DNA of 64,000 bases. It comes from Halorussus pelagicus. GTDB lineage: Archaea; Halobacteriota; Halobacteria; Halobacteriales; Haladaptataceae. How positions within the stretch are numbered: the first letter of the stretch is position 1; each line of letters opens with the position of its first letter. The stretch lies in the NCBI RefSeq assembly GCF_004087835.1, contig NZ_CP035119.1, positions 2,542,001 through 2,606,000 on the forward strand, in the 5' to 3' direction. The translations under genes were made by a program, and so were the position numbers. Shown one piece after another: positions 32,549-62,473 of this stretch. The notes beneath the pieces are model-generated. The model did no database searches and was not told the DNA's origin. It was given only the letters and a program-made list of their open reading frames with translations.

Positions 32549-33009
32549 CTCTGGAGATGAGTTCCGACTGTGGAGGTACTTTCGGGCGACGGACCTCCCG
32601 CTGGTCGGTCGTCGGATTTTGAATACAGCAATAGCCGCCGCTCACGAGTTTGAACAGACGGAGTAGGTCAGACAGCGGTAACCCGTGTGGAAACCACGCG
32701 GGCTGAAAGGTCGCTTCCCGACCGTGCCGTCTACGTAATGAATTCGTCCATCGGTACAAAACACCTCCGATACGCGGATGTCGGAGGCGTCGATACGGTC
32801 TGGCGGAGCGCTCCGTGCGCATCTGTCGCTCGACGCCGAGAACGACGACTCGACGGGGTCAAAGAGACGTAACTCGGCGTTGTGCTTTTGGTCCCCGGTT
32901 ACGGGCGAAAAATGCGGATGGACTCGGCGGGGTGTCGGCTTCTCGCGGGATGCGCGGGTTCTCGTTCGATGCCGGGTCTCGCTTCTCGTGGTGGGGGAGT
33001 TGCTCGAAA
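32549..33009. other. intergenic region holding the left attachment site
   Basis: 460 bases without a credible gene. Frames present are Arg-rich or shadows. Left of 32909 is the chromosomal sequence that once lay downstream of tRNA-Ala; right of 32931 is element sequence leading to the integrase stop at 33010. Confidence 0.6.
32909..32931 (+). repeat. left attachment repeat (attachment-site copy without the tRNA)
   Basis: 23 bases identical to 61867-61889 (AAAATGCGGATGG followed by ACTCGGCGGG). Only the 3' 13 bases of the tRNA sequence are present here, so the functional tRNA lies at the other end. Sequence on both sides diverges at once. Confidence 0.88.
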
Positions 33010-34044
33010 TCATGCGTCTTGGAGGAACTCGCGTCGAAGTTCCATTTTCTCGCGCTCGGTTCGCTGGTCGTAGTGCTGGTCGAGGACATCACTGCTGACG
33101 TTACACCGGTCGGTGACGATTTCCTCGGGGGTGCCGTCGCGGAGGTGCTTCGTGATCGCGCCGCGCCGGATGCCGTGGGGCGACCGCGACGAAGGACACT
33201 CGCTGGCCCGGTCGCGGTTCATGTACGGACAGTCGTCAGGGTCCTCGTTGTGCGGACAGTCGGCGACCATGCACGGCCGCGTCCACTGGTAGACCGTCCG
33301 ACGAATCGGTGTCTCGGTGAGACGGCCCTGCTCGCTGGTGATAAGCGGCTCGCGGCCGTAGTCGTCGGTCACGTCGTGGCGGTTGTGGTCGATGTAGTCC
33401 TGTAGGACCTCCGCGTAGTGGTCGCCGACCGCGATGGTCCGGTTCGCCGCCTTCGCGTTCTTCAGCGGCGTCTCGTTCTCGGGCCGATGCCGGAGTTCGA
33501 GGCACGGGGCGTCCGGGTCGAAGTCGCCCACGTCGAACGCGCGCAGGCTACCCAACCGGATACCAGTGTGCCACAGTAGCGCGAGGATGACGTGGTCGCG
33601 GCTCGCGTACTCGAACTGCTCGACGTATTCGAGGATAGCTTCCGCACGGTCCTCCGACAGCTTCTCGTCTTTTGCCTCCTCCTCTGGGTCGATTTCGGGG
33701 AGCAGAACACGCTCGCGCATTCCCGACTCGACGGCATCGATGCTCGCCGCAAATTCGAGGAAGACCCGGAGCGTAGCGAGGTTACTCCGGAGGGTTGTCT
33801 TCGAGACGCCGTCGTCACGGTACCCGTCGCCCTCGCCGTTCCGTCTCCAGACGCGGTACCGGTGGAGGTCTCGCCCGGTGAGTTCGTTCAGGTTCTCGAT
33901 GTGCTCCTCTTCGCAGAACGCGATGAACGCGTTCAGCCGATAGCGCTGGTTCTCCAGCGACTTCTCCGACAGTTCCGGCTCTCGATGGCTGAGGTACAGG
34001 TTCACCGCCTCCGCGGGCGGGAGCGGTTCGAGGTCGCTACTCAC
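33010..34044 (-). CDS. tyrosine recombinase/integrase
   Basis: 344 residues from the GTG at 34044. The N-terminal SAM-like core-binding domain spans about 8-110. The catalytic domain has Arg in HTGIRLGSLRAFDVGDF (about 178-194), the box SPHGIRRGAITKHL (about 290) and the tyrosine in LDQHYDQRTE near residue 325. A CPHNEDPDDCPY insertion looks zinc-binding. It catalyses site-specific integration at tRNA-Ala. The GTG overlaps the upstream stop by 8 bases, and the open frame upstream of it is a shadow. Last gene of a leftward operon, 79 bases from the attachment repeat. Confidence 0.93.
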   Translation of the reverse strand: MSSDLEPLPPAEAVNLYLSHREPELSEKSLENQRYRLNAFIAFCEEEHIENLNELTGRDLHRYRVWRRNGEGDGYRDDGVSKTTLRSNLATLRVFLEFAASIDAVESGMRERVLLPEIDPEEEAKDEKLSEDRAEAILEYVEQFEYASRDHVILALLWHTGIRLGSLRAFDVGDFDPDAPCLELRHRPENETPLKNAKAANRTIAVGDHYAEVLQDYIDHNRHDVTDDYGREPLITSEQGRLTETPIRRTVYQWTRPCMVADCPHNEDPDDCPYMNRDRASECPSSRSPHGIRRGAITKHLRDGTPEEIVTDRCNVSSDVLDQHYDQRTEREKMELRREFLQDA

Positions 34045-36684: not shown

Positions 36685-36933
36685 TTAGATACTGACTTTA
36701 TCCAAAAACCTATACCCCACAGAAACCATTGATTCGACAATGAGCGACGACATTACATCTATACAGGTAACAACCGACACGTGGCAGGAACTGAACGTCC
36801 GAAAAGCACCGGGCGACACTTTTGACGACGTTATCCAACGACTGCTTGAGCAAGGCGACGAGTAGTCTCGCCTAACTGCCGCCGTCGTCGCCGAGACACC
36901 GTCCACGCCCGCGCCGCAGTGCGGGCAGTTCAT
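36685..36933 (-). CDS. short zinc-ribbon-start ORF, antisense to the RHH gene
   Basis: 82 codons beginning MNCPHCGAGVDGV, a zinc-ribbon half, with an ATGA overlap to the upstream gene. The last 60 codons run antisense across 36740-36865 and lack haloarchaeal composition (Ser/Val-rich). Either only the first 20-25 residues matter or the ORF has been extended by loss of a stop. Shown because the coupled start is convincing; the C-terminus is doubtful. Confidence 0.35.
   Translation of the reverse strand: MNCPHCGAGVDGVSATTAAVRRDYSSPCSSSRWITSSKVSPGAFRTFSSCHVSVVTCIDVMSSLIVESMVSVGYRFLDKVSI
36740..36865 (+). CDS. ribbon-helix-helix-like micro-protein (divergent paralogue)
   Basis: 41 residues: MSDDITSIQVTTDTWQELNV, then TFDDVIQRLL. 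It aligns with the protein encoded at 36510-36632 through TWxxLN and the G-[DE]-TFDDV-[IL]-QRL block. A TATA-like AACCTATA lies about 27-34 bases upstream, fitting leaderless transcription. It likely competes with or complements its paralogue at the shared control region. Confidence 0.6.
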   Translation: MSDDITSIQVTTDTWQELNVRKAPGDTFDDVIQRLLEQGDE

Positions 36934-37154
36934 GCTGACCCTCCCTTGTCAACCACGACCAGTTGCGCGCGAGCGACGAGGTCGCCCGAGCGCTTGTCGA
37001 GCAATCGGTGGTAGTGACCGTCGCCGCGCTGGCGCGCGCAGGTCTGGCACCAGACGTGGTCGTTGGTCGCTTCCCAGTTGCGGTGGCCGCGCGGGCACGC
37101 CCACCGCCACCGCGAGGTGTCGTTGTTGAGCCTGACTATCGGTTCTCCCGACAT
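36930..37154 (-). CDS. Cys/His micro-protein (zinc-binding)
   Basis: 74 residues from ATG 37154: MSGEPIVRLNNDTSRWRWAC, with C near 20, H near 24, a CQTC pair near 35-40 and a HYHRLLDKRSGDLV stretch. The Cys/His spacing and the Trp-rich strand suggest a zinc-ribbon. Upstream codons in this frame are a shadow. First gene of a short leftward unit read from the structured region at 37155-37567. Confidence 0.6.
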   Translation of the reverse strand: MSGEPIVRLNNDTSRWRWACPRGHRNWEATNDHVWCQTCARQRGDGHYHRLLDKRSGDLVARAQLVVVDKGGSA

Positions 37155-37567
37155 GTGTTTCGGAGTAACACACGGGTTTGTTAAGAATCTAATTCTTGCA
37201 CGCGGTGAAAGTGAAAGTAGTCCGGTTTCACCGCGGAAGTTATTTGATTTTGTTAGTCTCGCGGTCGATTCACGTCGTTTCCGTCGTGCGGAACTATCAA
37301 GTCCCGTCGTCGTGTTTGCGTACATGGCTTCCGTACCTGTCTTACGGAGGCTCACGCGGACCCGCTGCCCCTAACAGCGGGGTCCGCTTCGTTTTCGAGC
37401 GATGGACCCATCGGCGAGCGACGGGTCCGCGATTGTCTCCGTGATTTCTCCCTTTAGAGTAATGCGTAATAAATCTTGATACCGATTAGTATCATGAACA
37501 CACCAACAGGTATTAACAGCGGACGGGTGACATGCAATTATGAGAATTGAGCATCGAGAGCGGGGTA
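37155..37567. other. structured divergent intergenic region (possible origin, control region or ncRNA)
   Basis: 413 bases with no credible gene but four inverted repeats: CGCGGTGAAA/TTTCACCGCG (37201-37210 and 37226-37235); a CCGTA...TACGG hairpin near 37330-37347; a long hairpin GCGGACCCGCTG/CAGCGGGGTCCGC with one bulge (about 37356-37387), followed by TTCGTTTTCG; and CGATGGACCCATCG just after. AT-rich ends flank it. It separates the leftward and rightward control genes of the element. Confidence 0.5.
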
Positions 37568-37840
37568 ATGCGCCCGCTGGTGACGTGGATGACTAAGTCA
37601 GACCCTGCTATCCTCGAATTTTTTGAGGAGCAGGACATTTCTATGCCGCCAGCGGTTGTATCCTTCAACATCGAAGGAGTATCGCATCCGACTGTAAAAC
37701 GTCGAATGCCTGAATTGGCCGACCATGGCTTGCTGGAGAAGGTAGAAGGAAAACGAGGGTACTATCGGATTACGGACCGAGGTCGTGCCTATCTCGCTGG
37801 CGACCTCGACGCCGAGGACTTAGAGAGCGACGAGGAGTAA
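37568..37840 (+). CDS. phiH1-repressor-like winged-helix protein
   Basis: 90 residues from ATG 37568 (MRPLVTWMTKSDPAILEFFE). The order DPAILEFFEE, PPAVVSFNIEG, SHPTVKRRMPELADHGLLEK, GYYRITDRGRAYLAGDLD is characteristic of the haloarchaeal phiH1-type repressor family: helix-turn-helix followed by a GYYRIT wing. Such proteins keep proviruses quiet by repressing early genes. A TTG seven codons upstream is possible but less likely. Confidence 0.85.
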   Translation: MRPLVTWMTKSDPAILEFFEEQDISMPPAVVSFNIEGVSHPTVKRRMPELADHGLLEKVEGKRGYYRITDRGRAYLAGDLDAEDLESDEE

Positions 37841-38719: not shown

Positions 38720-39901
38720 ATGGCCGGATGCGCGATTTGTGGCGAGACAGACGACCTCACCCGACGGTGCAACTACTGCGGGACGGAGGTCTGTTCGTCG
38801 CACACGCTCCCGGAGAAGCACAACTGTCCCTCGACTCGGGCCGCGAACGACGCCGGGAAACACTTCGAGAGCGCCTTCGATGCGACGCTCGGCGACTCGT
38901 CGGACTCCGCGAGTGAATCGCCCAAGGCGATGGACAAGAGCAAGATTCGAACCTACGGAACGGAAGAGGCCGTCGAGGACCTCGATTCGAGTCCACCAGT
39001 CCAGACGAAGTCGAACGACGACAAGAACATCGACAAGGAATTGAACAAGATCAAGCGCCGCCAGCGCTGGAACGCCATCGTCGGGACAGTGACCGACCCG
39101 CTAAACCGCGCTCGTCGCTGGACGGCCTCGAAGCTCCCCGGACGCGGAAACTCTACTCGAAGTACGGGACGTGGTTCATCGTCGGTTCTTTCCTCGCTAC
39201 TCTCGGCTCGGTTTCTCCTCGTCGTCCTGATCTCCGTGGCGACCGTCGGTCAACTGGGCGTCGTCGGTATTCCCGGCTTCCCCGTCGATACCTCTCCAGC
39301 GGAGTCGTTCTTGGAGGACACAGAAGGCGCGGTCGCAAACGCTACTGACGAAGAAACGCGTCGGTCTGATTCCGAAGCGTCGGACTCGTCGAGTGACGGT
39401 TCGGGCCTGTTTGACAACGACCTCAACCGAACCCAAATCGAGTATCTGGTTCACGAGGAGATAAACGAACGGCGACAAGATCGGGGTCTGCAACCGCTCA
39501 AGTTTAATCCGCACCTTAGGAATATTGCTCGAAATCACAGCCGCGACATGGGCGAGCAGGGCTACTTTTCGCACACATCACCGGACGGCGATTCGATGGA
39601 AGACCGCTACGAGGAGTACGGCTACATGTGTGAGGTGCCAATGAGTGGAAACAGATATGCGACCGGTGCTGAGAATATTGCGTACACTTACGCGAACGAA
39701 AATGTTCTCCGAGATAATGGAGAGAGCGTCTACTACTCGAACGAAAAAGAACTGGCTCGCGGCCTCGTGAACCAGTGGATGAACTCGACAGGCCACCGGA
39801 AGAACATCCTCCGGGACTACTGGCAAAAAGAGGGTATTGGCGTCTACATCATCGAAGTTGATGGTAAGACGCGGGTCTATGCAACCCAGAACTTCTGTTA
39901 A
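38720..39901 (+). CDS. AN1-type zinc finger, TM helix and CAP (SCP/PR1) domain protein
   Basis: 393 residues. An N-terminal AN1-like finger: CAICGETDDLTRRCNYCGTE, then CSSHTLPEKHNC. Then a disordered linker, a TM helix about 155-180 (FLLVVLISVATVGQLGVVGI), an acidic linker, and a CAP domain about 230-393 with EINERRQDRGLQPLKFNPHL, HSRDMGEQGYFSHTSPDG, GAENIAY and GHRKNIL. Cytoplasmic zinc finger and outside CAP domain joined through the membrane. CAP proteins are usually secreted, with lipid-binding or protease-like roles. Lower G+C than neighbours in the C-terminal half. Confidence 0.88.
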   Translation: MAGCAICGETDDLTRRCNYCGTEVCSSHTLPEKHNCPSTRAANDAGKHFESAFDATLGDSSDSASESPKAMDKSKIRTYGTEEAVEDLDSSPPVQTKSNDDKNIDKELNKIKRRQRWNAIVGTVTDPLNRARRWTASKLPGRGNSTRSTGRGSSSVLSSLLSARFLLVVLISVATVGQLGVVGIPGFPVDTSPAESFLEDTEGAVANATDEETRRSDSEASDSSSDGSGLFDNDLNRTQIEYLVHEEINERRQDRGLQPLKFNPHLRNIARNHSRDMGEQGYFSHTSPDGDSMEDRYEEYGYMCEVPMSGNRYATGAENIAYTYANENVLRDNGESVYYSNEKELARGLVNQWMNSTGHRKNILRDYWQKEGIGVYIIEVDGKTRVYATQNFC

Positions 39902-40572
39902 CCGCAATCAAGATACTTCTCGCGCCGGTCCACAATCCGCCGCGCGGTGTCCTTCGAGACTCCGTCGATGTCCTCGGCGATGGCTCGAAACGAGACTCCG
40001 TCCGCCCGCAAGTCGATGACTTCCAGTGCGGTCTCGAAGGCGTCGTCATCGTGGTCTGGAACGAATCGCTCTTTCTCTGGACCGTACTGGAGACCGAACG
40101 GCGGCCGCCCGTTCGGGAGACCGTTCTGGGCGCGATACTCGGCCTCGGCGCGTCCGCGCTCGGCCTCCTTGCGTTTCTCGGCGTCGTCGGCGTCGGCCTG
40201 CGCCGACTCGCGGGTGAGCGCGTAGGGGTCGTCCAGATCGACGCGCTCCCCGACCTCGACGACGTGGACATCAACGCCCATCGAGTCGAGATCGAGGAGC
40301 AGGCGAAGTCGCTCCTTGCTGTCGCGGGAAAGCCGCGACCGGTCCCGGACGACGACGTGGTCTACGTCACCGTCTTCGAGACGGTCGAGCATGGCTTGGT
40401 ACTCCTCGCGGTCGGCGGAGTACCCGCTGGCGTGTTGGCCGTCGTCGAAGATTTGTTCGAGGTCGAAGCCGCGTTCGTCGGCGTACTCGCGGATGGACTC
40501 GCGCTGTTCCGGGAGCGACTTCCCGTCTTGGGAGAGACGAGCGTAGCCGACGGCGCGCTCCTCGTTAGTCAT
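39898..40572 (-). CDS. serine recombinase (resolvase family)
   Basis: 224 residues from ATG 40572. The resolvase domain starts AVGYARLSQDGKSLPEQRES, with the probable catalytic serine in ARLSQDG and conserved arginines in VVVRDRSRLSRDSKER. A coiled segment (about 125-150) is followed by a HTH (SFRAIAEDIDGVSKDTARRI). It resolves or inverts DNA by serine chemistry; inside an integrated element it may resolve multimers. Its 3' end overlaps the CAP gene tail by 4 bases. Confidence 0.88.
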   Translation of the reverse strand: MTNEERAVGYARLSQDGKSLPEQRESIREYADERGFDLEQIFDDGQHASGYSADREEYQAMLDRLEDGDVDHVVVRDRSRLSRDSKERLRLLLDLDSMGVDVHVVEVGERVDLDDPYALTRESAQADADDAEKRKEAERGRAEAEYRAQNGLPNGRPPFGLQYGPEKERFVPDHDDDAFETALEVIDLRADGVSFRAIAEDIDGVSKDTARRIVDRREKYLDCG

Positions 40573-41846: not shown

Positions 41847-42233
41847 CCGCGTCACATCTTCCGCGGTTCCGTGGCGGTGGATGCCGTACACTTCTTCGAG
41901 CACACCGGTTAGAACGACGAGCGTGACCGCGAGTACCATCGGCGACCGGAGAACGAGAACGTGGACCGACGCGGTACTCGCGCCGATCGTCACCGCGAGC
42001 GGCACCGACAGCCAGTAGGGTTCGAGCAACTCCGCGGGCTCCTCGGCGTTGAGGTCTTCGAGGGCGACCCAGACCGCGGCGTACGCACGCACGTAGATGA
42101 CCATCTGGAGAGGGATGGCCAGCAGTTCGTAGCCGGAGAGAAAAAGGAGCGTCATCGCGGCGAGCAGGGTACTATACCTGTCGGGGAGTACGTCACACCA
42201 TCCGGCGGCGCTACGCGCCACCACCGTGGTCAT
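41820..42233 (-). CDS. membrane protein following the vWA gene
   Basis: 137 residues from ATG 42233 (MTTVVARSAAGWCDVLPDRY), overlapping the vWA gene end by 23 bases. Hydrophobic segments near 21-38, 40-55, 72-90 and 95-113. Third gene of the MoxR-vWA operon, so possibly the membrane partner of that pair. No family recognised. The longer upstream frame is a shadow of the vWA gene. Confidence 0.65.
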   Translation of the reverse strand: MTTVVARSAAGWCDVLPDRYSTLLAAMTLLFLSGYELLAIPLQMVIYVRAYAAVWVALEDLNAEEPAELLEPYWLSVPLAVTIGASTASVHVLVLRSPMVLAVTLVVLTGVLEEVYGIHRHGTAEDVTRLRALVLDE

Positions 42234-43332
42234 CCTCCAGTTTCTCGTAGCTCTCGACGAGTGCGTCGGCCAGCCGTTCCAACTCGGTGTGAACGTAGCC
42301 ATCCTCACCGAACATCCGTGCGAGGTTGCGTTCGGAGACACCGCCGAAGCCGACACCGATGACCGTGAACCCCTCGTCTCGGAGTTCATCGACGGTTTCG
42401 GCGGCCTCTCGGCAGGCGTCCGTCTTGTCGAGGTCGGTCCGAGACAGCACGGTCGGGTGGCCGTCGTGGACGACGAGCAGGAGCTTCTCGTCGGCGGCCA
42501 CTCGGTCGAGGAGGCTCGCGCAGTGCAATAGCCCTGCCGAGATCGGGTCTGACGACCGGGGGCGCACCGCGAGGAGGTGTTCCCAGTCGAATTTCTCCCG
42601 CGGCCGCGTGAGGACGACGCTGTCCGCGGAGCGACTACCGCCCTGCCACGCGTTTGCGACGACCTCGCCGCCGAACTTCTGGACCGCGTCGAGGAACGCA
42701 CCGACGGCCGATTTCGACTCGACCTCGTACTGACCCATCGACCCGGACTGGTCGAGCGAGACGCCGACCGCGACGTTGCCGCCGGTCACCTCGGTCCACT
42801 CCTCGTAGGGGTCAGTGGTCGTGTCGCCACAGACGTACCGAGTCGCCTGTCGAAGGTCCAGCGTTCCCGGCTCGTCAACTGGGCGACGGCGCTCGTCGCT
42901 GAAGATGTCCAGAAACGCCGAGTAGACCTTGCAGTCGATGGCAGTTTCGCGGATACGCTCGTGGATGTCCGGCAATGGAGCCGCTCCGTCGTACTCGGCG
43001 ATACGCTCGTTGCGCTCGCTCTCGTCAGCGACCACGTCAACCGTCACGTTCTGAAGGACCTCGTCCTCCTGCTCGATGTTGGAGTCGAGGCCCATGATCT
43101 GGTCGAGGTCCTCCTCCGACCACTCCTCGGGGTCGTCGTCCGAGTCGGCGTCCGTAGCCGTCGCCGTATCTGGGTCCACGTCACTGAGATGGGATTCAAC
43201 CAGTAACGCGGTGTTGGCGGGGAACTCCATCAGCTTAGCCTCCTCGCCGGTAGTCCCCCTCTCTCTCTCTCGGTCTGTCCCGTGACGGAACAGGAACCGG
43301 ACTAACTCCCCGGCGTTAGCGTGGAGCATCAA
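42211..43332 (-). CDS. von Willebrand factor A (CobT/ViaA-like) protein
   Basis: 373 residues. An acidic N-terminal half has DDDPEEWSEEDLDQIMGLDS, like the metal-binding acidic belt of CobT/ViaA proteins. The vWA domain (about 190-360) has the MIDAS motif VSLDQSGSMGQ (DxSxS) and ends VIGVGFGGVSERNLARMFG. MoxR ATPases work with such vWA proteins as chaperones for metal insertion or particle maturation. It overlaps the MoxR gene by 4 bases. Confidence 0.88.
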   Translation of the reverse strand: MMLHANAGELVRFLFRHGTDRERERGTTGEEAKLMEFPANTALLVESHLSDVDPDTATATDADSDDDPEEWSEEDLDQIMGLDSNIEQEDEVLQNVTVDVVADESERNERIAEYDGAAPLPDIHERIRETAIDCKVYSAFLDIFSDERRRPVDEPGTLDLRQATRYVCGDTTTDPYEEWTEVTGGNVAVGVSLDQSGSMGQYEVESKSAVGAFLDAVQKFGGEVVANAWQGGSRSADSVVLTRPREKFDWEHLLAVRPRSSDPISAGLLHCASLLDRVAADEKLLLVVHDGHPTVLSRTDLDKTDACREAAETVDELRDEGFTVIGVGFGGVSERNLARMFGEDGYVHTELERLADALVESYEKLEDDHGGGA

Positions 43333-44543
43333 GCGACCCCCTGTGTCTGGTCTACCGTCGTGTCGGCGTCACCCGAGAGGTGATGTTCGACGAGGCGCTC
43401 GACCGCGCGCGCCGGACTGCCGTCGGCGTAGAGCGAGTCGTTCTCCGGGTCCGGTTCGAGGACATCGCCCCAGTCGTATCGGGGGTTGATCAGCGCCGTC
43501 TGCGCAGCCCGTAGGAGTGGGTCAGGTCGCGTCCCGTCGTAGGCCGCATAGGTGCGAGCCCAGCGGAAGAGCGTCGATGTTGGAACGCCACGTTGAATCG
43601 TTCCGCCCCTGTCAGCGGCCTTTCGCCGGAGGTCGTTGGCGATGGTGACCATCGTCTCCGCGACCTCGTTGGCGACCGGCGTCTCGTCGGCGAGCAGGTC
43701 AACCTCTCGCGCTCGGTCAACGAGGCCGAGATACGGGACCGGAAACGTGTTTCCGTGGCGGCGCTCCTCGGCGGGGTCCACGTCGAACGTCTTGTATTGC
43801 GCTCCTTCGTTCATCGTCGAGAACGAGATCAGGTTCTCGGTGTTCCCCCGAATCTCCTCGTTGGCTCTCGGTTTAACCGTCACTGACGTTCGGGAGTCGA
43901 GAACCGACTGGAGTGGCGACTTGTTCCGGAACGGACTGCGGTTGATCTCGTCCCAGAGGACGACGACCGGCCGGTCCTGCGAACACAGCAGCGCCCGGAC
44001 GACGGGGCCGTCAACCCAGACCGATTCGCCTCCGAGTAGGTGCGGTGAGCCGACGAGGCTTGCTTCCTTCATCTGTGCCGTAATCTGAACCTCGATAACC
44101 GGCCAGCCGCGTTCGGCGGCGAGACGGCGAACGAGTGTCGTCTTTCCGGTGCCGGGCGGACCGACCAAACGGAAGTGCGGAATCGGCCCGTTAGTCTCGC
44201 GCTGGTCGAGGGCGGCCTCGATGTCCTCGAACTCACCGAGGACGCTGATGTAGTTCGGAACCTCGTCGATGGTCGGGACCAAGCTGTCCCAGTCGTACTC
44301 CCGATCTCCGAGGACCGGCAGGGTATCGAGGTCGTGGTCAGCGTCGTCGGCCGGGATGCTGTAGACGAATCCCCGGCCGGTGTCCTTCTCGTGGCGGGCC
44401 AACCGCGTGTCGTCGTCTTCGGCCATCTTCTTGAGTTCCCGTGAGACGTGAGAACGGTCGCTAATACCGTCGATCTCACGGGTTATTTCGGGAGCAGTGA
44501 GAGCGCCTGCGCGGATGGCCGCGTGCGCGTCGGCGACTTTCAT
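43329..44543 (-). CDS. MoxR-type AAA+ ATPase with N-terminal winged helix
   Basis: 404 residues. Residues 1-65 form a winged-helix-like domain (ALTAPEITREIDGISDRSHV, then a FVYSIP wing). The AAA core has Walker A LVGPPGTGKTTLVRRL near 130, Walker B VVVLWDEINRSPFRNKSPLQ near 195, and a C-terminal lid (about 300-400). MoxR/RavA enzymes remodel proteins together with vWA partners; the next gene encodes one. GGAGGT stands 6 bases before the ATG, preceded by a nested palindrome, so this mRNA has a leader. Confidence 0.9.
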   Translation of the reverse strand: MKVADAHAAIRAGALTAPEITREIDGISDRSHVSRELKKMAEDDDTRLARHEKDTGRGFVYSIPADDADHDLDTLPVLGDREYDWDSLVPTIDEVPNYISVLGEFEDIEAALDQRETNGPIPHFRLVGPPGTGKTTLVRRLAAERGWPVIEVQITAQMKEASLVGSPHLLGGESVWVDGPVVRALLCSQDRPVVVLWDEINRSPFRNKSPLQSVLDSRTSVTVKPRANEEIRGNTENLISFSTMNEGAQYKTFDVDPAEERRHGNTFPVPYLGLVDRAREVDLLADETPVANEVAETMVTIANDLRRKAADRGGTIQRGVPTSTLFRWARTYAAYDGTRPDPLLRAAQTALINPRYDWGDVLEPDPENDSLYADGSPARAVERLVEHHLSGDADTTVDQTQGVA

Positions 44544-49626: not shown

Positions 49627-52518
49627 ATGCCGAGACCGCCCGTTCGCCGAGGAGGTGGGAGCCGTGACGATGACTCGTCCAGCGACGAGACCGAGTCTGA
49701 CGACTCGGAGACTGTCGGGAACGACGGTCCTGGAGGGACCGCACCGACACAGGGCGAGTTGACCGGTGGTCTGGGGTCGGATTCCGGGTCCGAATCGGAC
49801 TCCGGAAGTAGTGACTCCTCGGACTCCAACTCGGGAAGTAGCGGCGCTTCTGGGTCCGGCTCGGCAGGCGATGGGTTCGACAAGGACATGGCCAACGAGG
49901 CTCGCTATGGCGATGACAGCCCTAACGATACGACTCCAGAGGACGACACGGATACGTCGTCGAGGTCCGGAGAGAAATACTCCGAGGAGGTGATGCCTGC
50001 CGAACGACCGACTGTCGTCACCGATGACGGTGCCCCTGACCTTTCGAGGGACACCGTTCAGGAGACAGTATCGGAGGTCCAGCGCAACGTTGCGAGCGAG
50101 TACGGGAGTGAAGTTAGCCCGTCTGATGTTCGTGTGCGCGTGACTGGTGAGAACGTGGTGGAAGTCCTCGGACTGTCCCGTGGCGCACAGCGTGACGTGC
50201 TCGAGGACCGTCTGAAGGAGCAAACTGGCGCGGAAGATGTCGAGTTCTCAAAAGAGGATGGCGACCTCACTGCGAGACCCATCTTCGGCGATCAGCCCGA
50301 GAGAATTGATGGTCCGAGAGGAGGACCGGACCTAACGAACGACCAGTCGGATGTCGGTGAGGAGTTCTCCCTCGGCCCGCCTCGAAACGCCGACGAGAAA
50401 CGCCGCGTCGGTTCCGGCGGGCAACTTGGTGAAGAGTTGATGGAAAAGCAGGTTGAGGACGACTCAGACGTGAACGTCGATGTCGGCCGGGACGAGCAGG
50501 GTGGTTTTGTTCTTGACCGGACGGAGACCACGACCAACATCCGCGAACGGATCGCCGAAGAGACCGAGAACATCGACGAGTCGGACATAAAGCGCGTCTT
50601 CCGGAAGGGGCCGGATAGTGTTGAGGATCTCGCGGCCGACAAGGAGGCTGAGACCGGTTACGGAGTCGAGCTAACGCGCGAAGCACGCAAGACCCTCCTC
50701 AGGCAGAAAGCCCGCGAACAGAACCCGAACGCGGAGAACATCGAGGTCGTCGAGAACGAGAAGGGCGACCTCGTCGCGCAGATCGAAGGGCAACAGGCCG
50801 AAGAACAGTTCGGTGATTATCAGGCCGAAATTCCGTTCACCGGCGGTGAAACCGTCGAGGACTACCTCGAAGGAGGGTCGCAGGCCATCAGTAGCGCGAT
50901 TCAGGATACGTCGAGCGCGCTCTTCGATGAGGGAGGGATCGCCTCGGAGTCGATTATCGCCGAAGAGTTGGAGGACACCGCAAACGATTTGCGAGCGAGA
51001 GGGTACGACGATGCGGCTTCGTCGCTGGAAGGAACCAGTGTCGCGTTAGAGGAGAGTCTCCGGTCGTTCGGGAAGGGCACCTTCGAGGGGGCCGCAAACA
51101 TTGCAAACGTCCCGAGGGCGGCACTCGGGCTGAAGGAAGGCGCTGAGTACCTTGTTTACGCCGGGTCCGAGACGCTCGCTGGAGACGGAGACGAAGTCGC
51201 TGAACAGACTGATGACGCACTCGTGTCGGCTGGCGCGGCCGCTGTCGATGCTGCGCAGTCGAACCCGGCGGAGTTTTCCGGGCAACTTGTCGGGTCGTTA
51301 GGCGGGAGTGCTGCCGCCATCTCCGGTGCCTCGAAGCTGTCCTCGACGGCGGGTCGGGCGGCGGCCTACGGGATTCAACCCGGCGAGGAACTGGTCGGAA
51401 GTGTTGCGACGCGACTCGCCTCGAAGACAGCGACTGGTTCGCGGGTCGTCTCCCAAATGCCTGGTAACAAACTCGGTCCTGAAGAGTTGAGTGTCGTCGC
51501 AGGCAAAAAGGCAGGACAGAAACTCCGTGAGACGGTCGATGATCCGCGAGTGAGGCAGTTCCTGCGCGATGAGCGCAGGCAGGCCCAGCCGCTTGGGCCG
51601 GGAACTGGTGCAGGGGACCAGTTGACACTGACGAGAGACCGTGAAGAATCGAACAGCGAGACGACGGAGTCGGACGAGGAGCTTTCAGACCTCGATAAGG
51701 AACTGGAAGAACTTCGAGAGAAGGTCTCGGAACAGGACGTTCGGGAGACAGACGAGTGGACCCCCGAGTCGGCCGAGGTCAGTGAGGCCGAGCCGGGGGC
51801 GACCCCGACGGAGGATCTCCGCGAACTAACTCCTGACGACCAGTCTGTCGAAGAAGTGGCCGAGAGTACCCCGACGACGGACGTTCGGGAGACTTCAGAG
51901 ACAGATCTTGAGTCAGAAATCGGTGTTAAACCGGGGTCACAGTCGAAGAGCCTTGACCAGACCATCCGAGAGATAGACGAGCTAAATCAGGGCCTGAGAC
52001 AGCAGTTCGAACTTCAAGACGCCCAGAAAACGACGGCTGAGACAGAAAAGACGACGGAGGTGGGCGTCGAAGCGCGGACGGTTGAGGAAGAGGAGGCGGC
52101 GACGACGCTTCGTGACCTGCAGGAGGAGGTTCAACGCGACCTCGATTCGACGTTCGAGGATACTGCGTCTCGGCTCCGTGAAGCGCAGGCGACTGATCAA
52201 GGCGTCACAGTCGAGAGTTCAGTGGACCTCTCCACCGAGATGGACCAAACCCTCGACCTCGATTTCGAGCAGGACCTCGATCAGGACCTGCAGCTCGACC
52301 AAGAGTTCAATCAGGACTTCGAGCGGGACCTCGACCTGCGGAAGAAGTTCGACAGACGGAAGAAGGAACTTCCGGGTGGCGACCAGCCCCGGTCCGACTT
52401 CTGGCAGGAGTTCGAGGAGATAGGCGGTCTCTTCAGCAAGGAGTACCGGAACCCGGTGGCGTCACTTGACGAGATGGACGCCGAGTTCGACGCGGCCTTC
52501 GAGGAGGGATTCGAGTGA
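49627..52518 (+). CDS. 963-aa disordered/coiled structural-type protein with Asp-Leu repeat end
   Basis: Starts at ATG 49627. Residues 1-130 are Ser/Asp/Gly-rich and disordered. Two similar modules follow (about 135-215 and 345-425: QRNVASEYGSEV..., RKTLLRQKAREQNPNAENIE...VENEKGDLVA). A central Ala/Gly-rich, partly hydrophobic region (about 445-660) is followed by coiled coil and acidic linkers (about 680-860), a short repeat of DLD/DQDL/DFE units (about 870-915), then a basic patch KKFDRRKKELPGG. No family recognised. It is the largest product and may be a scaffold or tape-like organiser of the particle. Confidence 0.7.
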   Translation: MPRPPVRRGGGSRDDDSSSDETESDDSETVGNDGPGGTAPTQGELTGGLGSDSGSESDSGSSDSSDSNSGSSGASGSGSAGDGFDKDMANEARYGDDSPNDTTPEDDTDTSSRSGEKYSEEVMPAERPTVVTDDGAPDLSRDTVQETVSEVQRNVASEYGSEVSPSDVRVRVTGENVVEVLGLSRGAQRDVLEDRLKEQTGAEDVEFSKEDGDLTARPIFGDQPERIDGPRGGPDLTNDQSDVGEEFSLGPPRNADEKRRVGSGGQLGEELMEKQVEDDSDVNVDVGRDEQGGFVLDRTETTTNIRERIAEETENIDESDIKRVFRKGPDSVEDLAADKEAETGYGVELTREARKTLLRQKAREQNPNAENIEVVENEKGDLVAQIEGQQAEEQFGDYQAEIPFTGGETVEDYLEGGSQAISSAIQDTSSALFDEGGIASESIIAEELEDTANDLRARGYDDAASSLEGTSVALEESLRSFGKGTFEGAANIANVPRAALGLKEGAEYLVYAGSETLAGDGDEVAEQTDDALVSAGAAAVDAAQSNPAEFSGQLVGSLGGSAAAISGASKLSSTAGRAAAYGIQPGEELVGSVATRLASKTATGSRVVSQMPGNKLGPEELSVVAGKKAGQKLRETVDDPRVRQFLRDERRQAQPLGPGTGAGDQLTLTRDREESNSETTESDEELSDLDKELEELREKVSEQDVRETDEWTPESAEVSEAEPGATPTEDLRELTPDDQSVEEVAESTPTTDVRETSETDLESEIGVKPGSQSKSLDQTIREIDELNQGLRQQFELQDAQKTTAETEKTTEVGVEARTVEEEEAATTLRDLQEEVQRDLDSTFEDTASRLREAQATDQGVTVESSVDLSTEMDQTLDLDFEQDLDQDLQLDQEFNQDFERDLDLRKKFDRRKKELPGGDQPRSDFWQEFEEIGGLFSKEYRNPVASLDEMDAEFDAAFEEGFE

Positions 52519-53154: not shown

Positions 53155-55528
53155 GAGTATCGTCGTGTTCGCGCTCGTGGCAGTGTATCTGGCAACATCA
53201 GTGGGTCCTGTCACGGCGGCGCATGGAGAATTAGCCGTCGGAAGTGAGCACTCGACGGGCGCAGAGTTATCGGGTGCGACGACACTCGAAAATGTGACGG
53301 TTGACGGTTCTGGTGAGGCAGCTAGCGTGTCACTGGCTACCGGACTCACGGACGGTTTTGAAGACGACGATCTGGGAGCCTTCCCCAGTGACTGGGCGGG
53401 AGATAGCGCAGAAGTCGTCTCGTCGCCCGTTCACGACGGCACCCGATCGGTAAACGTCACTGGGGGCGACCTTGACCAGTCGGTCCAGACCTCCACGGCG
53501 AACGCGAGCGCGTGGCTGTACTCGCATACGGACGCTGGGACGCTCATCTACTTGAACGAGGATGGTAACTCGATTGTAAACGTTGGAATCCGGAATGGCG
53601 ACCTCGTTTACTATGACGGGTCGTGGACTACGATTGCAACGACCCCTGGGAACAACGAATGGGTGTGGGTGAATGTCCGTGACATTGACCCGAGTTCCGA
53701 CACCGCGACGGTTGAGTGGATGATACAAAGCGGGGCGTCTGGTAGCAGCACGGTCAATTTCCGCAACGACATGACGAACGGCTACGATACGTTCCAAATC
53801 CAGCAACAAGAGACGGACGTGGGAACTGTCGATGCGGTGGACGCGGGAACTCACGCCGAGACAGGATTGTACGTGAGCGATAACCACACCGCGACCAACG
53901 CGAAAAAGGCCTGGACGAATCTCTCGATCTCGAACGCGACCGCGACTGTCGAGTGGCAGGCGTGGACTGGTACGCAGTGGCAGGTGGTTGATTCATCAAC
54001 ATTCTCGAATTCAGGCAATAAGACCGTCAATATCTCCGGAGCCGACTTTGACTCCCCAAAGTGGCGGGTGGACGTGACCCTCGAAAAGACGGGGAGCAAC
54101 CCGACGGCCGAACTGCACGACGAGGGGATGCTCGTCGAGACAGACCCACCCACCGCTGATACCGTGAACGCGACGCCAGCGAACGGAAACGGAACGAGCG
54201 GACGGTCCATCACGGTCGAGGTCCCGGTCAACGACACCGACTTCGGTAAAACCCAAGGCGACTCCGTGGACGCGTCACTCATCCTCGACGGCGTCGAGGA
54301 AGCGACAACGACGTTAGCCAGCAACGGGACCGCCAGTGTGTCGGTCTCGAACGTCTCGGGCGGGACCCATTCCTATCACTGGATTCTCACGGACTCCTAC
54401 GGGCATACCGTCTCGACGGACTCGTTAGAGTTCAAATCGCCGCTCATCCTTCATATTCACGACGGCGACAACCGGTCGGCGCTCGTAACGTCGGAGATCG
54501 ACATGGAGATCATCGAAACGAACGGTGACTTCCGAGAGACGCGCTCGGTCTCGGACGGGACGGCCGTCGTCGGCGCGGTTCCAGATACTCAGCTTAAAAT
54601 TCGTCTCACCGCCGACGAGTATCAAAGCCGCCGGATGCTGATCAACCACCCCTATTCACGGACGAACCGGCATACAGTCCTGCTAAACAAAAGCGATTCC
54701 CAGACGTTCCAACAGTGTTTCGAGGTCAACTCACAGAGCGCGGGATTCGAGCCTGCGGATACGTGGCTGGTCCTCGAAAGCTACATCGACGGCGAGTGGC
54801 GCGACGCCGCAGGAACGTACTTCGGCTCGACCAACTACGCGTGCGTCGGTGTCACCGATGGGGAGGAGTACCGACTTATCGTCAACGAGGGGTCGAAATC
54901 GAAAGACCTCGGTGGGTACACTGCTGATAGCGGATTCGCAAACCAAATTCTGCAACTGAACGTCCGGAGTGTCGATGTCGGGGTCTCAGCGGGAACGCCG
55001 TACGCGATGAGCGTCCGCGGGTCGCACAACGAGACGACCGGCGAGGGAACGATCAGCATCACGTTCGCGTCCCACGACCAGTCAGTGTCCGATTTAGAGC
55101 TTCTCGTCTACCAGAAGGGCAACGAGAGTAACGTCGTCTTCGAGAAGACGGTGTACGGGACCGTCGAGACCTATGCGGCGTCGGTCCCCATCGACGCGAA
55201 CGAGACCGACGAGACGTTCATCGTCGAATGGAGCGCGACAGAAGGAACGAACAAGACGATTAGCGGTCAGCAGAAGGTGAACGTCTACCGCGGGAGCGTC
55301 GAAACGGGTCTCGGTCCGATGTGGCAAAAGGTCGGATACGGGAGTCTCATCCTCCTCATCGGTGGACTGTTCGGGCCGATATCTGCGCCGATTGGCTCGG
55401 TCGTGACGGCGTCGGTCGCCGGTGCGCTGTGGTACAGCGGAGTCCTCGACCTCCGAATCGGCGTGATTCTCTACGCCGGGAGCGTCGGACTCGCCTTCTA
55501 TCTCAGCAGTCGCATGGGGGGTCGATAA
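53144..55528 (+). CDS. 794-aa exported spike-like protein with C-terminal membrane anchor
   Basis: Signal peptide MARKSIVVFALVAVYLATSV, cleaved near ...VTAAHG. Three beta-rich regions follow: a jelly-roll/LamG-like one (about 60-205: DGFEDDDLGAFPSDW, then YSHTDAGTLIYL), a middle one (about 230-330), and an Ig-like region (about 335-425, GGTHSYHWILTDSYGHT). A further beta domain reaches 710, with one Cys pair (near 526 and 567), and many Asn-X-Ser/Thr sequons lie between. The last 80 residues hold three hydrophobic segments. Candidate receptor-binding spike of the particle, or a cell-surface adhesin. Confidence 0.8.
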   Translation: MARKSIVVFALVAVYLATSVGPVTAAHGELAVGSEHSTGAELSGATTLENVTVDGSGEAASVSLATGLTDGFEDDDLGAFPSDWAGDSAEVVSSPVHDGTRSVNVTGGDLDQSVQTSTANASAWLYSHTDAGTLIYLNEDGNSIVNVGIRNGDLVYYDGSWTTIATTPGNNEWVWVNVRDIDPSSDTATVEWMIQSGASGSSTVNFRNDMTNGYDTFQIQQQETDVGTVDAVDAGTHAETGLYVSDNHTATNAKKAWTNLSISNATATVEWQAWTGTQWQVVDSSTFSNSGNKTVNISGADFDSPKWRVDVTLEKTGSNPTAELHDEGMLVETDPPTADTVNATPANGNGTSGRSITVEVPVNDTDFGKTQGDSVDASLILDGVEEATTTLASNGTASVSVSNVSGGTHSYHWILTDSYGHTVSTDSLEFKSPLILHIHDGDNRSALVTSEIDMEIIETNGDFRETRSVSDGTAVVGAVPDTQLKIRLTADEYQSRRMLINHPYSRTNRHTVLLNKSDSQTFQQCFEVNSQSAGFEPADTWLVLESYIDGEWRDAAGTYFGSTNYACVGVTDGEEYRLIVNEGSKSKDLGGYTADSGFANQILQLNVRSVDVGVSAGTPYAMSVRGSHNETTGEGTISITFASHDQSVSDLELLVYQKGNESNVVFEKTVYGTVETYAASVPIDANETDETFIVEWSATEGTNKTISGQQKVNVYRGSVETGLGPMWQKVGYGSLILLIGGLFGPISAPIGSVVTASVAGALWYSGVLDLRIGVILYAGSVGLAFYLSSRMGGR

Positions 55529-56993: not shown

Positions 56994-57386
56994 ATGGTCT
57001 CACCGAATGATACTTGGGAAGAAACGGAGCATGGGTACGAGAATGGAGATACGTCGGTCATTGTAAGCGAGGTTGAGGGCCGAATCATCAATGATGGTCA
57101 GCGAAAGAGCTTCACGGGATACGAAGTCCAAATTTGGGAGGGGCCAGCGGGCTACGCGAGTCCGACGGAAATTGCCACTTACGAAGAGCCACGGCCTGCA
57201 TGGGAGTTGGCGAACCTGCTAACTCGTCTGTACGGAACGTATCCCGCTAACTTGCTGATGGGGTTGGAGGGGCCGGAGGGAGATTCGTTGCCGCGTGGTC
57301 TGGCTGATCGAGACCCTGCGCAACTTCTTCGTGACGTTCTGGGCTACGAGGCGTCCTATGTTGATGAGGCGCTCGGGGACGACTGA
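56994..57386 (+). CDS. hypothetical soluble protein
   Basis: 130 residues, alpha/beta: DTSVIVSEVEGRIIN, GYEVQIWEGPAGYASP, then helical RPAWELANLLTRLYGTYPAN and a C-terminal acidic helix. No family recognised. Stand-alone rightward gene, flanked by hairpin-rich DNA on both sides and convergent to the DUF7845-like gene. Confidence 0.6.
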   Translation: MVSPNDTWEETEHGYENGDTSVIVSEVEGRIINDGQRKSFTGYEVQIWEGPAGYASPTEIATYEEPRPAWELANLLTRLYGTYPANLLMGLEGPEGDSLPRGLADRDPAQLLRDVLGYEASYVDEALGDD

Positions 57387-57487
57387 TCGGGTGTGAGTCC
57401 CACCGTGGTTTCCGCTGTTCCGCTGAATTTGCGGAGGCAGGGGGTACTTTTTTTGGTGGGTGCCCTTAGGCACACCTTCTAAGGGGG

Positions 57488-57508
57488 GCTTCCCGTTGGA
57501 TGGGAAGC
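57488..57508. terminator. hairpin between convergent genes
   Basis: GCTTCCC (57488-57494) pairs with GGGAAGC (57502-57508). An oligo-T run TTTTTTT lies at about 57449-57455, preceded by further GC-rich hairpin sequence. Within the 269-base convergent gap, so likely termination for one or both genes. Confidence 0.45.
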
Positions 57509-57655
57509 TCGCCGGGAAGGGCCGCACCTCCGTACTCACTGGTCGCATATCTCAGACTGGCTAAAGCAAGTTAGCTTGTGTTTCGAGGAAGAGAAGTAAA
57601 ATTGTAGTTGTATAAATTGCCCCGAAGAATAGTGTTGCCACTACTTAGTCGCGCG

Positions 57656-59308
57656 TCAGTTGGTGGAACTATCCATTATTCGTTCATGTTCGTCCGATCC
57701 GTATATCAGTCGGTGGTAGCCGTTGCCCGTATTGAACTCGATGATCGCTTTGTGAAGTGGCGCGTCGAATCCGGCTTTCGTCCAGACGACCTCAAGGTAC
57801 TCCAAGACCTTCCCGATGTACTCTCCTGAACTCTGCCGATACCGGTTGAGGACCGACGTGATCTTGATGTGGACGCGGTCGCGTGGTGCGCTCCCGTCGT
57901 TGATAACTTCGGCACCGTACTGAGTCAGCCATCGCTGGAAGGCCGAGCCTTTCTCTTTCAGTTGCCGTGGGTCGAGATCGAGGATGCGCGCGGCTTGGTC
58001 GGCGGCGGCCTCGACGGTCTCCTCGACGCGCTCGAAGACGGCGGCGAACTCTTGGCGAATCTTCTTCGACCGCCACTTGACGACGCCGTTGTCGGATTCA
58101 AGGAGCGCGTCGCACCGCTTGAGGGTGCGGTAGAGCGTCGAGACTGAGGTATCCGCCTCGTCGATGACTTCTTCGTAGTGGCACTGGCCGCTGTCGGTCA
58201 TCGCTTCGAGGTGGTCCATGTCGGCGTCGGTCAACTCGCGCATCTGTTGGACGAGTAGCGCTTCCTGCGAGGCTTCGAGTTTCGGCGTTGGGTCGTCGTA
58301 GAGCCGGAGCGTCGGATTCTCGTCGTAGGCGCTCACGTCGAAGTGGCTGTCAGGGACGAACGTCGTCTGGTCGGGGTCGGTTGGGACGTTCGACCAGTAG
58401 AGGAGGTTGATGAGCGTTTCGTTGAGTTCACGCTGGAGGTCGTCGATCTTCGACCAGCGAACGGTCGAGTTGTTCAGCTCCTTGTTGAAGAGCACGCCGA
58501 GTTTTGGGTGGTGGGTCGGGTCGGTTTCATCGACGCTGTCGGGGTTCTTCAGGAGGTAGCTCTTGACCTGCTTCCCGCGATTCCCGACCGGAAGTTCGCG
58601 GGCGGCCGACTGCCGGAGCGGGAGTCGGTGCATCTTGCCGACGGTGTCCTCGTTATCGACCTCCAGCGAGTAGCGCACGCCCTCCTCGTCGAGGAGAAGG
58701 TGATGGAGTTTCTGGAGGATGCCGCTGGTGCCGATGATTTTCTGGTTCATCGACCGGCGGATGCGGAGATAGCGTTCGTAAGAGTGAGCGTTCGACGAGT
58801 CGTGGATGTAGCGCGGGTTGAAGTATTCGTGGTTGAACCGCTGGCCCGCCTCCGCGAACAGCAACTGGACGAGTTGGGGGAGGAGTCGTTCGTACTCCTC
58901 GGGTTCGAGGTTGCTGCCTTGGACGTGGACGTTGACGCCTTCGTTCGGGATGGAGTCGCGGTCGCAGGGAGTCGAGATGCGGTCGCCCGACTCGTAGTGT
59001 TCCATGCCCTTGAACCGGGGTCGGACGTGGAACGTGACCTTGCGTTCGCCGTGACCGCGGGCTTTCAGTCGGGGCTCGTAAAGTCGCGGCGCGTCGATGG
59101 GGTCGTCGGGTCGGGGTGCGATGCCACCCTTCTGGTAGTAGAGTTCGAACGACCACTGTTCACCGTCGAGGTCGTATTCCAGTTGGTCGGCGTGGCCGTC
59201 GAACTGGTTGACGAGGAGGTTCGTGACGGCCCAGTAGGGCGAGAGACCATGCTCGAAGAAGTTCCAGTCGGCCTCCAGTTCGTGGGGCGCGCTGGCGACG
59301 TGCGTCAA
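57656..59308 (-). CDS. DUF7845-like protein, candidate replication initiator
   Basis: 550 residues. The N-terminus (APHELEADWNFFEHGLSPYW) and the DGEQWSFELYYQKGGIAPRP segment match my memory of haloarchaeal DUF7845 proteins. A middle winged-helix region (about 360-430: LTDADMDHLEAMTDSGQCHY, DEADTSVSTLYRTLKRCDAL) is followed by long helices. Proteins of this type occur in haloarchaeal plasmids and proviruses; a replication role is inferred from context and size. Overlaps the next leftward gene by 4 bases. Confidence 0.6.
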   Translation of the reverse strand: MTHVASAPHELEADWNFFEHGLSPYWAVTNLLVNQFDGHADQLEYDLDGEQWSFELYYQKGGIAPRPDDPIDAPRLYEPRLKARGHGERKVTFHVRPRFKGMEHYESGDRISTPCDRDSIPNEGVNVHVQGSNLEPEEYERLLPQLVQLLFAEAGQRFNHEYFNPRYIHDSSNAHSYERYLRIRRSMNQKIIGTSGILQKLHHLLLDEEGVRYSLEVDNEDTVGKMHRLPLRQSAARELPVGNRGKQVKSYLLKNPDSVDETDPTHHPKLGVLFNKELNNSTVRWSKIDDLQRELNETLINLLYWSNVPTDPDQTTFVPDSHFDVSAYDENPTLRLYDDPTPKLEASQEALLVQQMRELTDADMDHLEAMTDSGQCHYEEVIDEADTSVSTLYRTLKRCDALLESDNGVVKWRSKKIRQEFAAVFERVEETVEAAADQAARILDLDPRQLKEKGSAFQRWLTQYGAEVINDGSAPRDRVHIKITSVLNRYRQSSGEYIGKVLEYLEVVWTKAGFDAPLHKAIIEFNTGNGYHRLIYGSDEHERIMDSSTN

Positions 59309-59544
59309 GCGTCGTCACCTCCCTGCTCGGTGGCCGTGCTGGACTGCTCACCGACGGTCTCCGTCACGAACTCCTCGCCGTTGTAGAACGTCTTCTTCCC
59401 CGCTCCGATAAACGCATCACAGTTCGGGCAACGGCGTTGGTATGAGATTCGACCGCGCTTTAGACGCTTCCTCACGTCCATCGGTTCCATGTCCTCACGA
59501 CACTCCGGACACCGCTCGGTTTCGTCTGTGGGCTGCTCAGTCAT
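59305..59544 (-). CDS. zinc-ribbon micro-protein
   Basis: 79 residues from ATG 59544. CPECREDMEPMDVRKRL and RCPNCDAFIGAGKKTF make a complete two-knuckle zinc ribbon (CxxC, 25 residues, CxxC). Disordered acidic end. It overlaps the methyltransferase by 8 bases and the DUF7845-like gene by 4. Confidence 0.7.
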   Translation of the reverse strand: MTEQPTDETERCPECREDMEPMDVRKRLKRGRISYQRRCPNCDAFIGAGKKTFYNGEEFVTETVGEQSSTATEQGGDDA

Positions 59545-61866: not shown

Positions 61867-61889
61867 AAAATGCGGATGGACTCGGCGGG
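61867..61889 (+). repeat. right attachment repeat, overlapping tRNA-Ala 3' end
   Basis: Identical to 32909-32931. Positions 61877-61889 are the last 13 bases of tRNA-Ala (minus strand) and 61867-61876 lie beyond the tRNA. The element is read to end here. Confidence 0.88.
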
Positions 61890-61948: not shown

Positions 61949-62473
61949 TCGAACGCATTTCTTCGTTGGCCGGGGTTACTGATAAACCTCTCGGAATCGC
62001 CCGACTATCGAGAAGGAGTGACAGAGGAGGTGAGTAACTGGGTGGAGAGAATCCGTCGGTAGTCGAGTTGGTGGGTTCGACCATCCGGTTCAGCAGGAAG
62101 ACGGGGCGTCCGTAGCTAGCTACTGCCGACGCCACTCATTCCGCAACCGCGTCCGCTGAGCCTGCACTCGCTTCGCTCGCGCAGACCTCGCGCGCTAATG
62201 GGGAGACACGAGGTCGCGCCAGCGCGCGCCGGAATGATTGTTCGAACTTCTCGAAACGACGGACGTGTGAGAGCGAGGAGGACAATAGGATATAGTAAAG
62301 CTTTACCCTTGCAGGTGTATCCCCAAATGTACGGGAACAGCACAGCCGCAAATCTGACTCGTCGGGTGCTTGCCCGACTCGGGATTGCGGACGTGCGCCG
62401 CGTCAGACCGACGCATCAGCACGCATACCTCACAATCGGCGATAGCGGCCTGTGCAGTTCCAATCAGACAACT
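61949..62473. other. intergenic region with long structured leader of the uS15 gene
   Basis: 525 bases without a credible gene. TATAGTAAAG (62291-62300) is a good TATA element; the overlapping 12-base palindrome GTAAAGCTTTAC is at 62295-62306. Transcription from there would give a leader of about 150 bases with hairpin GTCGGG/CCCGAC near 62362-62380. The left part includes the tRNA-Ala promoter region and short GCGAGCGAAG-like repeats. Confidence 0.5.

Follow-up and report, generated by a model that had tools for sequence, protein, structure and literature searches.

The window, a 64,000-nucleotide stretch of Halorussus pelagicus DNA, contains a 29-kb element (32919-61889) bounded by 13-bp repeats. 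One copy of the att sequence CCCGCCGAGTCCA lies near the integrase gene (32919-32931), while the other (61877-61889) forms the 3' end of a tRNA-Ala. The SNJ2-type tyrosine integrase, with 48% identity to the SNJ2 integrase, is encoded at one end of the element (33010-34044, minus strand), at the far end of a leftward gene cluster, and a DUF7845 protein of the SNJ2 Rep family (57656-59308, minus strand; 347 bits) is encoded at the other. A DUF7845 Rep, a short att site at the 3' end of a tRNA and an integrase of the SNJ2 family together mark it as an integrated element of the SNJ2 type. Its cargo includes a serine resolvase (39898-40572), an AAA_5 ATPase and VWA pair (42211-44426), a cytosine methylase (59537-61105) and, at 49888-52518 and 53327-55528, large proteins not assigned to any family. 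An S15-Halobacteria ribosomal protein leader (Rfam RF03143) is located just outside the element, at 62331-62396.

Between the leftward cluster and a divergent winged-helix (wHTH) gene (37568-37840, plus strand; phrog_2440, the same PHROG as SNJ2 gp04) lies a hairpin-rich region, 37155-37567. An earlier note had reported four inverted repeats here, and a sequence scan locates all of them: a leftmost hairpin with 10/10 bp (37201-37210/37226-37235), two further hairpins at 37327-37335/37343-37351 and 37404-37412/37420-37428, and one with a single bulge at 37356-37367/37375-37387, part of which is listed as I25. An additional long-range pairing joins 37344-37364 and 37422-37442 (81%). On both strands, the region folds better than 100 of 100 dinucleotide shuffles, with z-scores of -3.1 (plus) and -4.0 (minus). 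The arms, on whose conservation the earlier note had staked its proposals, are indeed retained in relatives with compensatory changes over ~37284-37447. The leftmost of the four hairpins lies outside this conserved core. The region is non-coding only in part, as relatives share, in the same frame, an open reading frame that begins at 37325 on the minus strand. From the sequence, the inverted repeats of the core are best read as a ~160-nt element pointing leftward, which would form the 5' leader of the integrase operon carried by the integrated SNJ2-like element.

Nucleotide searches matched ~37282-37445 in plasmid records, three from Halorussus and one from Halobaculum. Within the family, 15 of 28 genomes carry the element, some of them several times. 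A covariance model, R1, built from 28 loci aligned on the minus strand, matched 194 of the 391 genomes of the class (57 of 86 genera). Its successor R2, built on 91 matches from 90 loci that share less than 86% identity and used with a cut-off of E<=1e-4, raised the count to 201 of the 391 Halobacteria genomes, which represent 61 of the 86 genera; the best E-value exceeds 1e-9 in 20 of the 201, leaving 181 secure. In a search of the phylum, 14 of 148 genomes matched, all from the element's own order. One genome yielded 15 matches, including weak and opposite-strand ones; weak opposite-strand matches are echoes of the palindromic P3 hairpin (see below). No Rfam 15 family reached its gathering threshold at this place in the window or in 20 loci, and the best sub-threshold match was mir-2518 (23.6 bits against a threshold of 61). 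A scan of IMG/VR for P3 gave 0 matches with an exact pattern, which makes this result uninformative.

The family also extends to known mobile replicons. Integrase records numbered 14 for phages and 27 for plasmids, and those examined comprised HRPV9 with seven further viruses and seven plasmids. The RNA is present in SNJ2, HRPV9, Halfgib1, Humcor2 and pHK2, viruses and a plasmid with a related integrase, and matches weakly in Harhisp1 (22 bits), while a strong match was absent from HHPV4, LSV-48N, HRTV-25 and six of the seven plasmid integrase loci tested. Literature searches, which took in passages of PMC8371274, PMC13107129, PMC10599561 and PMC8241225, brought up no account of the leader. 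The SNJ2 lysogeny module, made up of a regulator gene (orf4) and an int-orf2-orf3 operon, has the same gene arrangement as the locus in the window, and those passages describe no leader RNA for it.

The element opens at its predicted 5' end with X1 (37437-37442, minus strand). When 90 loci are aligned at X1 without gaps, an A-rich BRE occupies -35 to -32 and a TATA box -31 to -27; in the window, these form the TCAAGA-TTTATTA promoter at 37467-37479 (minus strand), which keeps a fixed distance from the element across loci. The usual archaeal spacing of TATA box to start places the first transcribed base at X1. Owing to these two regularities, the leader RNA is predicted to begin at ~37442-37445, about 37443, and to read left. 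No comparable AT-rich signal occurs on the other side of the element among the aligned loci. Overlapping the BRE, a near-palindrome, TGATACCGATTAGTATCA (37477-37494), is a candidate operator for the wHTH protein; across loci, the best inverted-repeat score of the promoter region is at least 8 in 14 of 91, compared with 1.1% of shuffles.

A second promoter-like module (CACTTTCACTTTCACCGCG ... TTCTTAAC; 37180-37235, minus strand) includes the leftmost hairpin and would serve the zinc gene start at 37154. It consists of CACTTTCACTTTCAC with a TATA-like stretch behind it, lies ahead of the zinc gene and overlaps the first open reading frame. Of 90 loci, 11 have its motif in the 200 nt that follow the core, and none has it in the control region. 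The leftmost hairpin was thus ruled out as a member of the family, its motif being found in a minority of loci only. The earlier note had also argued that the region is no terminator, and this stands: the terminator-like match on the plus strand is the reverse reading of one arm of a conserved RNA helix, plus-strand scanning gave 2 matches where 1.8 are expected by chance, and the element sits at the 5' end of an operon.

The structure of the core was assessed in 91 members from 90 loci that are less than 86% identical. P2 (37404-37412 with 37420-37428) shows double changes in 9/9 pairs with 89-95% of cells paired, and P3 (37356-37367 with 37375-37387) shows them in 9/11 pairs with 95% of cells paired. 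Between P3 and the start codon lies X' (37342-37351), a switching strand that can pair either with X1, forming helix P1, or with X2 (37326-37336), forming helix H2 directly 5' of the start codon. All of these lie on the minus strand, as does a further hairpin, H1 (37289-37306), which starts 17 nt after the AUG within the coding sequence. P1, P2 and P3 together make a three-way junction in which 93.2% of 2263 cells are paired; 22 of its 26 pairs show double changes (12.6 in shuffles and 6-14 when slid), and 194 cells are changed on both sides, compared with 48 in shuffles. H2 shows double changes in 9/9 pairs (4.8 in shuffles, 4-6 slid), with 87.6% of cells paired. R1, to which the alignment was fitted, contains H2, P2 and P3 and lacks P1, and the P1 count is therefore the freer test.

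Disjoint pairs of relatives, which limit the effects of inheritance, gave a further measure of compensation. X1 compensates for 34 of 67 changes in X' (2-6 slid), and X2 for 57 of 75 (0-11 slid). For example, X1, X' and X2 read ACGCGAG, CUCGCGU and ACGCGAA in SNJ2, and ACGAGCG, CGCUCGU and ACGAACG in locus L083. Since X' is unable to pair with both X1 and X2, the RNA has two folds. Moreover, the computed energies of the folds are close: across 141 loci, after those with an unclear X' or no contiguous 5-bp X1-X' duplex had been dropped, the energy of the open form (P1) minus that of the closed form (H2) has a median of -1.5 kcal/mol, and 112 of the 141 lie within 5. Because P1 and H2 both covary and are mutually exclusive, a bistable translational switch is the best reading of the core.

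Two features stand against a switch mechanism, namely mixed wobble counts and a near-universal A.C mismatch in H2. In P2, wobbles are G.U in 100 cases and A.C in 10, as expected for an RNA of the minus strand, the likely strand of the element, but the balance of G.U to A.C leans the opposite way in H2 (1 to 88), P3 (10 to 41) and P1 (14 to 36). H2 has exactly one mismatch in 79 of 91 members and an A.C mismatch in 83 of 91, so that the closed helix is rarely perfect, while X1 mismatches X' once in 43 of 91. We take the lone A.C mismatch of H2 to tune the closed state, but G.U pairing in an antisense RNA would be consistent with it as well.

Several other structural ideas were tried and dropped. 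An alternative fold through the long-range arms GCGGACCC/GGGTCC (a-b', a'-b) had support among the first 28 loci and was abandoned since pHK2 and Halfgib1, in which P2 is replaced wholesale, lose these pairings and keep P1. A T-loop or tRNA-like reading of H1 failed by eye on the misfit of its loop, and inspection by eye found no kink-turn.

The position of the start codon is fixed, with an ATG one nucleotide after H2 in 91 of 91 aligned rows and H1 beginning 17 nt after the ATG in 85 of 91. These counts bear on a possible role at the level of transcription, as a put-like RNA that RNA polymerase would bind where the operon begins, for antitermination or processivity. Such a role would suit an RNA that begins at the first transcribed base and is kept while the downstream genes change, but the fixed 1-nt spacing from H2 to the AUG and the mostly 17-nt spacing to H1 point to translation, and we consider it improbable.

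In the window, the ATG at 37325 opens the first open reading frame of the leftward operon (36930-37325, minus strand; 131 aa; N-terminus MYANTTTGLDSSAR), which runs through the second promoter-like module into a zinc-binding part from ~37154; phrog_36874 spans residues 1-127. Across relatives, 169 loci were taken at the outset, L109, which has no ATG, was dropped, and eight loci with a mis-assigned X' were excluded from the counts of reading frames. The frame mostly begins M-x5-(R/T)-G-x-(E/Q/K)-x-P, and either encodes ~30 aa with a stop overlapping the next start or forms the N-terminal part of a longer zinc-binding or PadR-like protein. A stop/start overlap occurs in 128 of 160 such frames, compared with 97 of 320 in other frames. 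Furthermore, synonymous sites in the H1 loop are fixed (CTT for 67 of 70 Leu, GAA for 95 of 98 Glu), so the RNA constraint seems to extend into the coding sequence. In SNJ2, it is orf3 that starts at the conserved ATG; according to passages of PMC8371274, this gene shares a transcript with orf2 and int and promotes recombination. A divergent sub-family (G000:C4:55908-56052, locus L065, and L034:2371-2520) has a different leader, with X' GCGGUCGUU and X2 AACGAACCGC, and the same kind of reading-frame start, MHAFTQTGLECPAR / MFAYTQTGLECPAR.

The gene neighbourhood is similarly conserved. A divergent winged-helix gene is present at 164 of 167 loci (control, 1 of 167), starting 115-155 nt from the element (5th-95th percentile). 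None is recognised in Humcor2. The earlier note's suggestion of a regulatory structure, small RNA or control centre was right in kind, the region holding a conserved structured RNA between a repressor-type wHTH gene and a leftward operon. Downstream, an integrase like that of the window lies on the same strand in 65 of the 105 loci with at least 5 kb of downstream sequence, and never on the opposite strand; the remaining 40 lack such an integrase within range. A coiled-coil protein gene occurs in 26 of the 39 of these integrase-less loci that were examined, so that integrases are not the only genes the RNA accompanies. Roughly one in four of the long-flank loci (L140, L152, L158, L167, L196 and others) combine the RNA, the wHTH gene and the coiled-coil gene with no integrase, and these are possibly domesticated regulators.

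That several copies can share a genome might suggest that processing of the leader yields a small RNA that acts in trans on related elements, as an immunity RNA. Such an RNA is improbable, a shade more so than the put-like one, as nearly every copy of the element stands in cis ahead of an ATG that opens an in-frame reading frame, and no conserved 3' end or terminator was seen.

The earlier note's proposal of a replication origin fares worse. Passages of PMC13107129 place the SNJ2 origin hairpin downstream of the Rep gene orf19 and report replication from orf19 plus the 210 bp beyond it, a fragment that lacks the integrase leader region. A hairpin downstream of the Rep gene is what a betapleolipovirus rolling-circle (RCR) origin calls for, and the leader of the window lies 20 kb from the DUF7845 gene. 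Linking the region to the gene at 57656-59308 was apt, as this encodes the Rep of the same element, but an origin should adjoin that gene. The SNJ2 hairpin is likewise conserved and belongs to the same kind of element; it differs from the structure described here in lying at the other end of the element and in being a DNA origin, where that of the window is a leader. Just downstream of the DUF7845 gene, in 57380-57660, there is a hairpin, GGGCTTCCCGTTGGATGGGAAGC, that is possibly the rolling-circle origin of this element. A DNA function for the core, as a replication origin, a single-strand origin or protein-bound palindromes, would account for the hairpins and for their presence on replicons with an RCR-type Rep. 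Yet the promoter, ATG and reading frame occupy fixed places, the P2 wobbles favour one strand and the SNJ2 origin maps elsewhere, which together make any such function highly improbable; the origin and single-strand origin readings were rejected.

A ligand-sensing riboswitch, in which the junction would be a metabolite or ion aptamer, P1 the sensor helix and H2 the expression platform, deserves more weight. The leader appears to occupy a 5' UTR, judging by the promoter at a fixed distance and the ATG directly downstream, and P1 and H2, sharing X', are two exclusive helices of which one masks the start region. Translational riboswitches with a three-way junction resemble it in that the 3' strand of the closing helix P1 alternatively pairs at the start codon with near-equal energies. 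However, the highly conserved, ligand-binding unpaired nucleotides of riboswitches were not found here: only C19, G20, T36, T99 and G117 are unpaired leader columns conserved to at least 85%, and the junction has few conserved unpaired bases, which sets it apart from a typical metabolite aptamer. Furthermore, P2 is replaced wholesale in pHK2 and Halfgib1 and almost lost in Humcor2, and no metabolic gene was recognised in the operons looked at. The leader also differs from those riboswitches in residing in archaeal mobile elements and in a structure that continues into the coding region, and its ligand is only hypothetical. We regard ligand sensing as unlikely, though the least so of these alternatives. 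The fluoride riboswitch of Thermococcus kodakarensis, named in passages of PMC8241225 (2021) as the sole experimentally shown archaeal riboswitch, is also an archaeal leader RNA thought to act on translation; it shows no relation to the present family in gene context or by Rfam match.

We favour, with a probability of roughly two in three, a bistable 5' leader RNA that opens and closes the first start codon of the integrase operon. Leftward transcription would begin at X1 (~37443) from a promoter probably repressed by the divergent wHTH protein. In the open form, X1-X' would close the three-way junction with P2 and P3, leaving X2 and the start codon at 37325 free, whereas in the closed form the X'-X2 hairpin, ending one nucleotide before the start codon, would block ribosome loading. 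As X1 is made long before X2, P1 would be favoured first; fresh transcripts may thus start out open and close with time, or P1 may be held by a bound factor. Kinetic-trap leaders, that of the MS2 maturation gene among them, expose the start site in a short-lived fold until a competing one takes over; MS2 is an RNA phage and its leader has no sequence in common with the haloarchaeal one, which makes the comparison an analogy only. Translation of the first reading frame would be coupled to the next gene by the overlapping stop and start codons found in most loci, and the choice of fold may therefore set the output of the accessory genes and the integrase if the two folds exchange in cells. The leader would in this way gate excision, and it probably helps to decide whether the integrated element stays silent or leaves the chromosome. 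The SNJ2 repressor Orf4 reportedly silences int. On a broader proposition our confidence is evenly divided: that this large, previously undescribed family of two-state leader RNAs, carried by the viruses and integrated elements of about half of the Halobacteria, forms with the divergent repressor a two-layer lysogeny switch, in which translation of the integrase operon would depend on RNA folding and not on protein binding alone.

Very few natural regulatory leader RNAs are known from archaea, and the putative family described here occurs in 201 of 391 genomes. Its presence in SNJ2, a genetically tractable temperate virus, would allow a direct test of post-initiation control of excision, and the family would offer natural haloarchaeal RNA switches for study.
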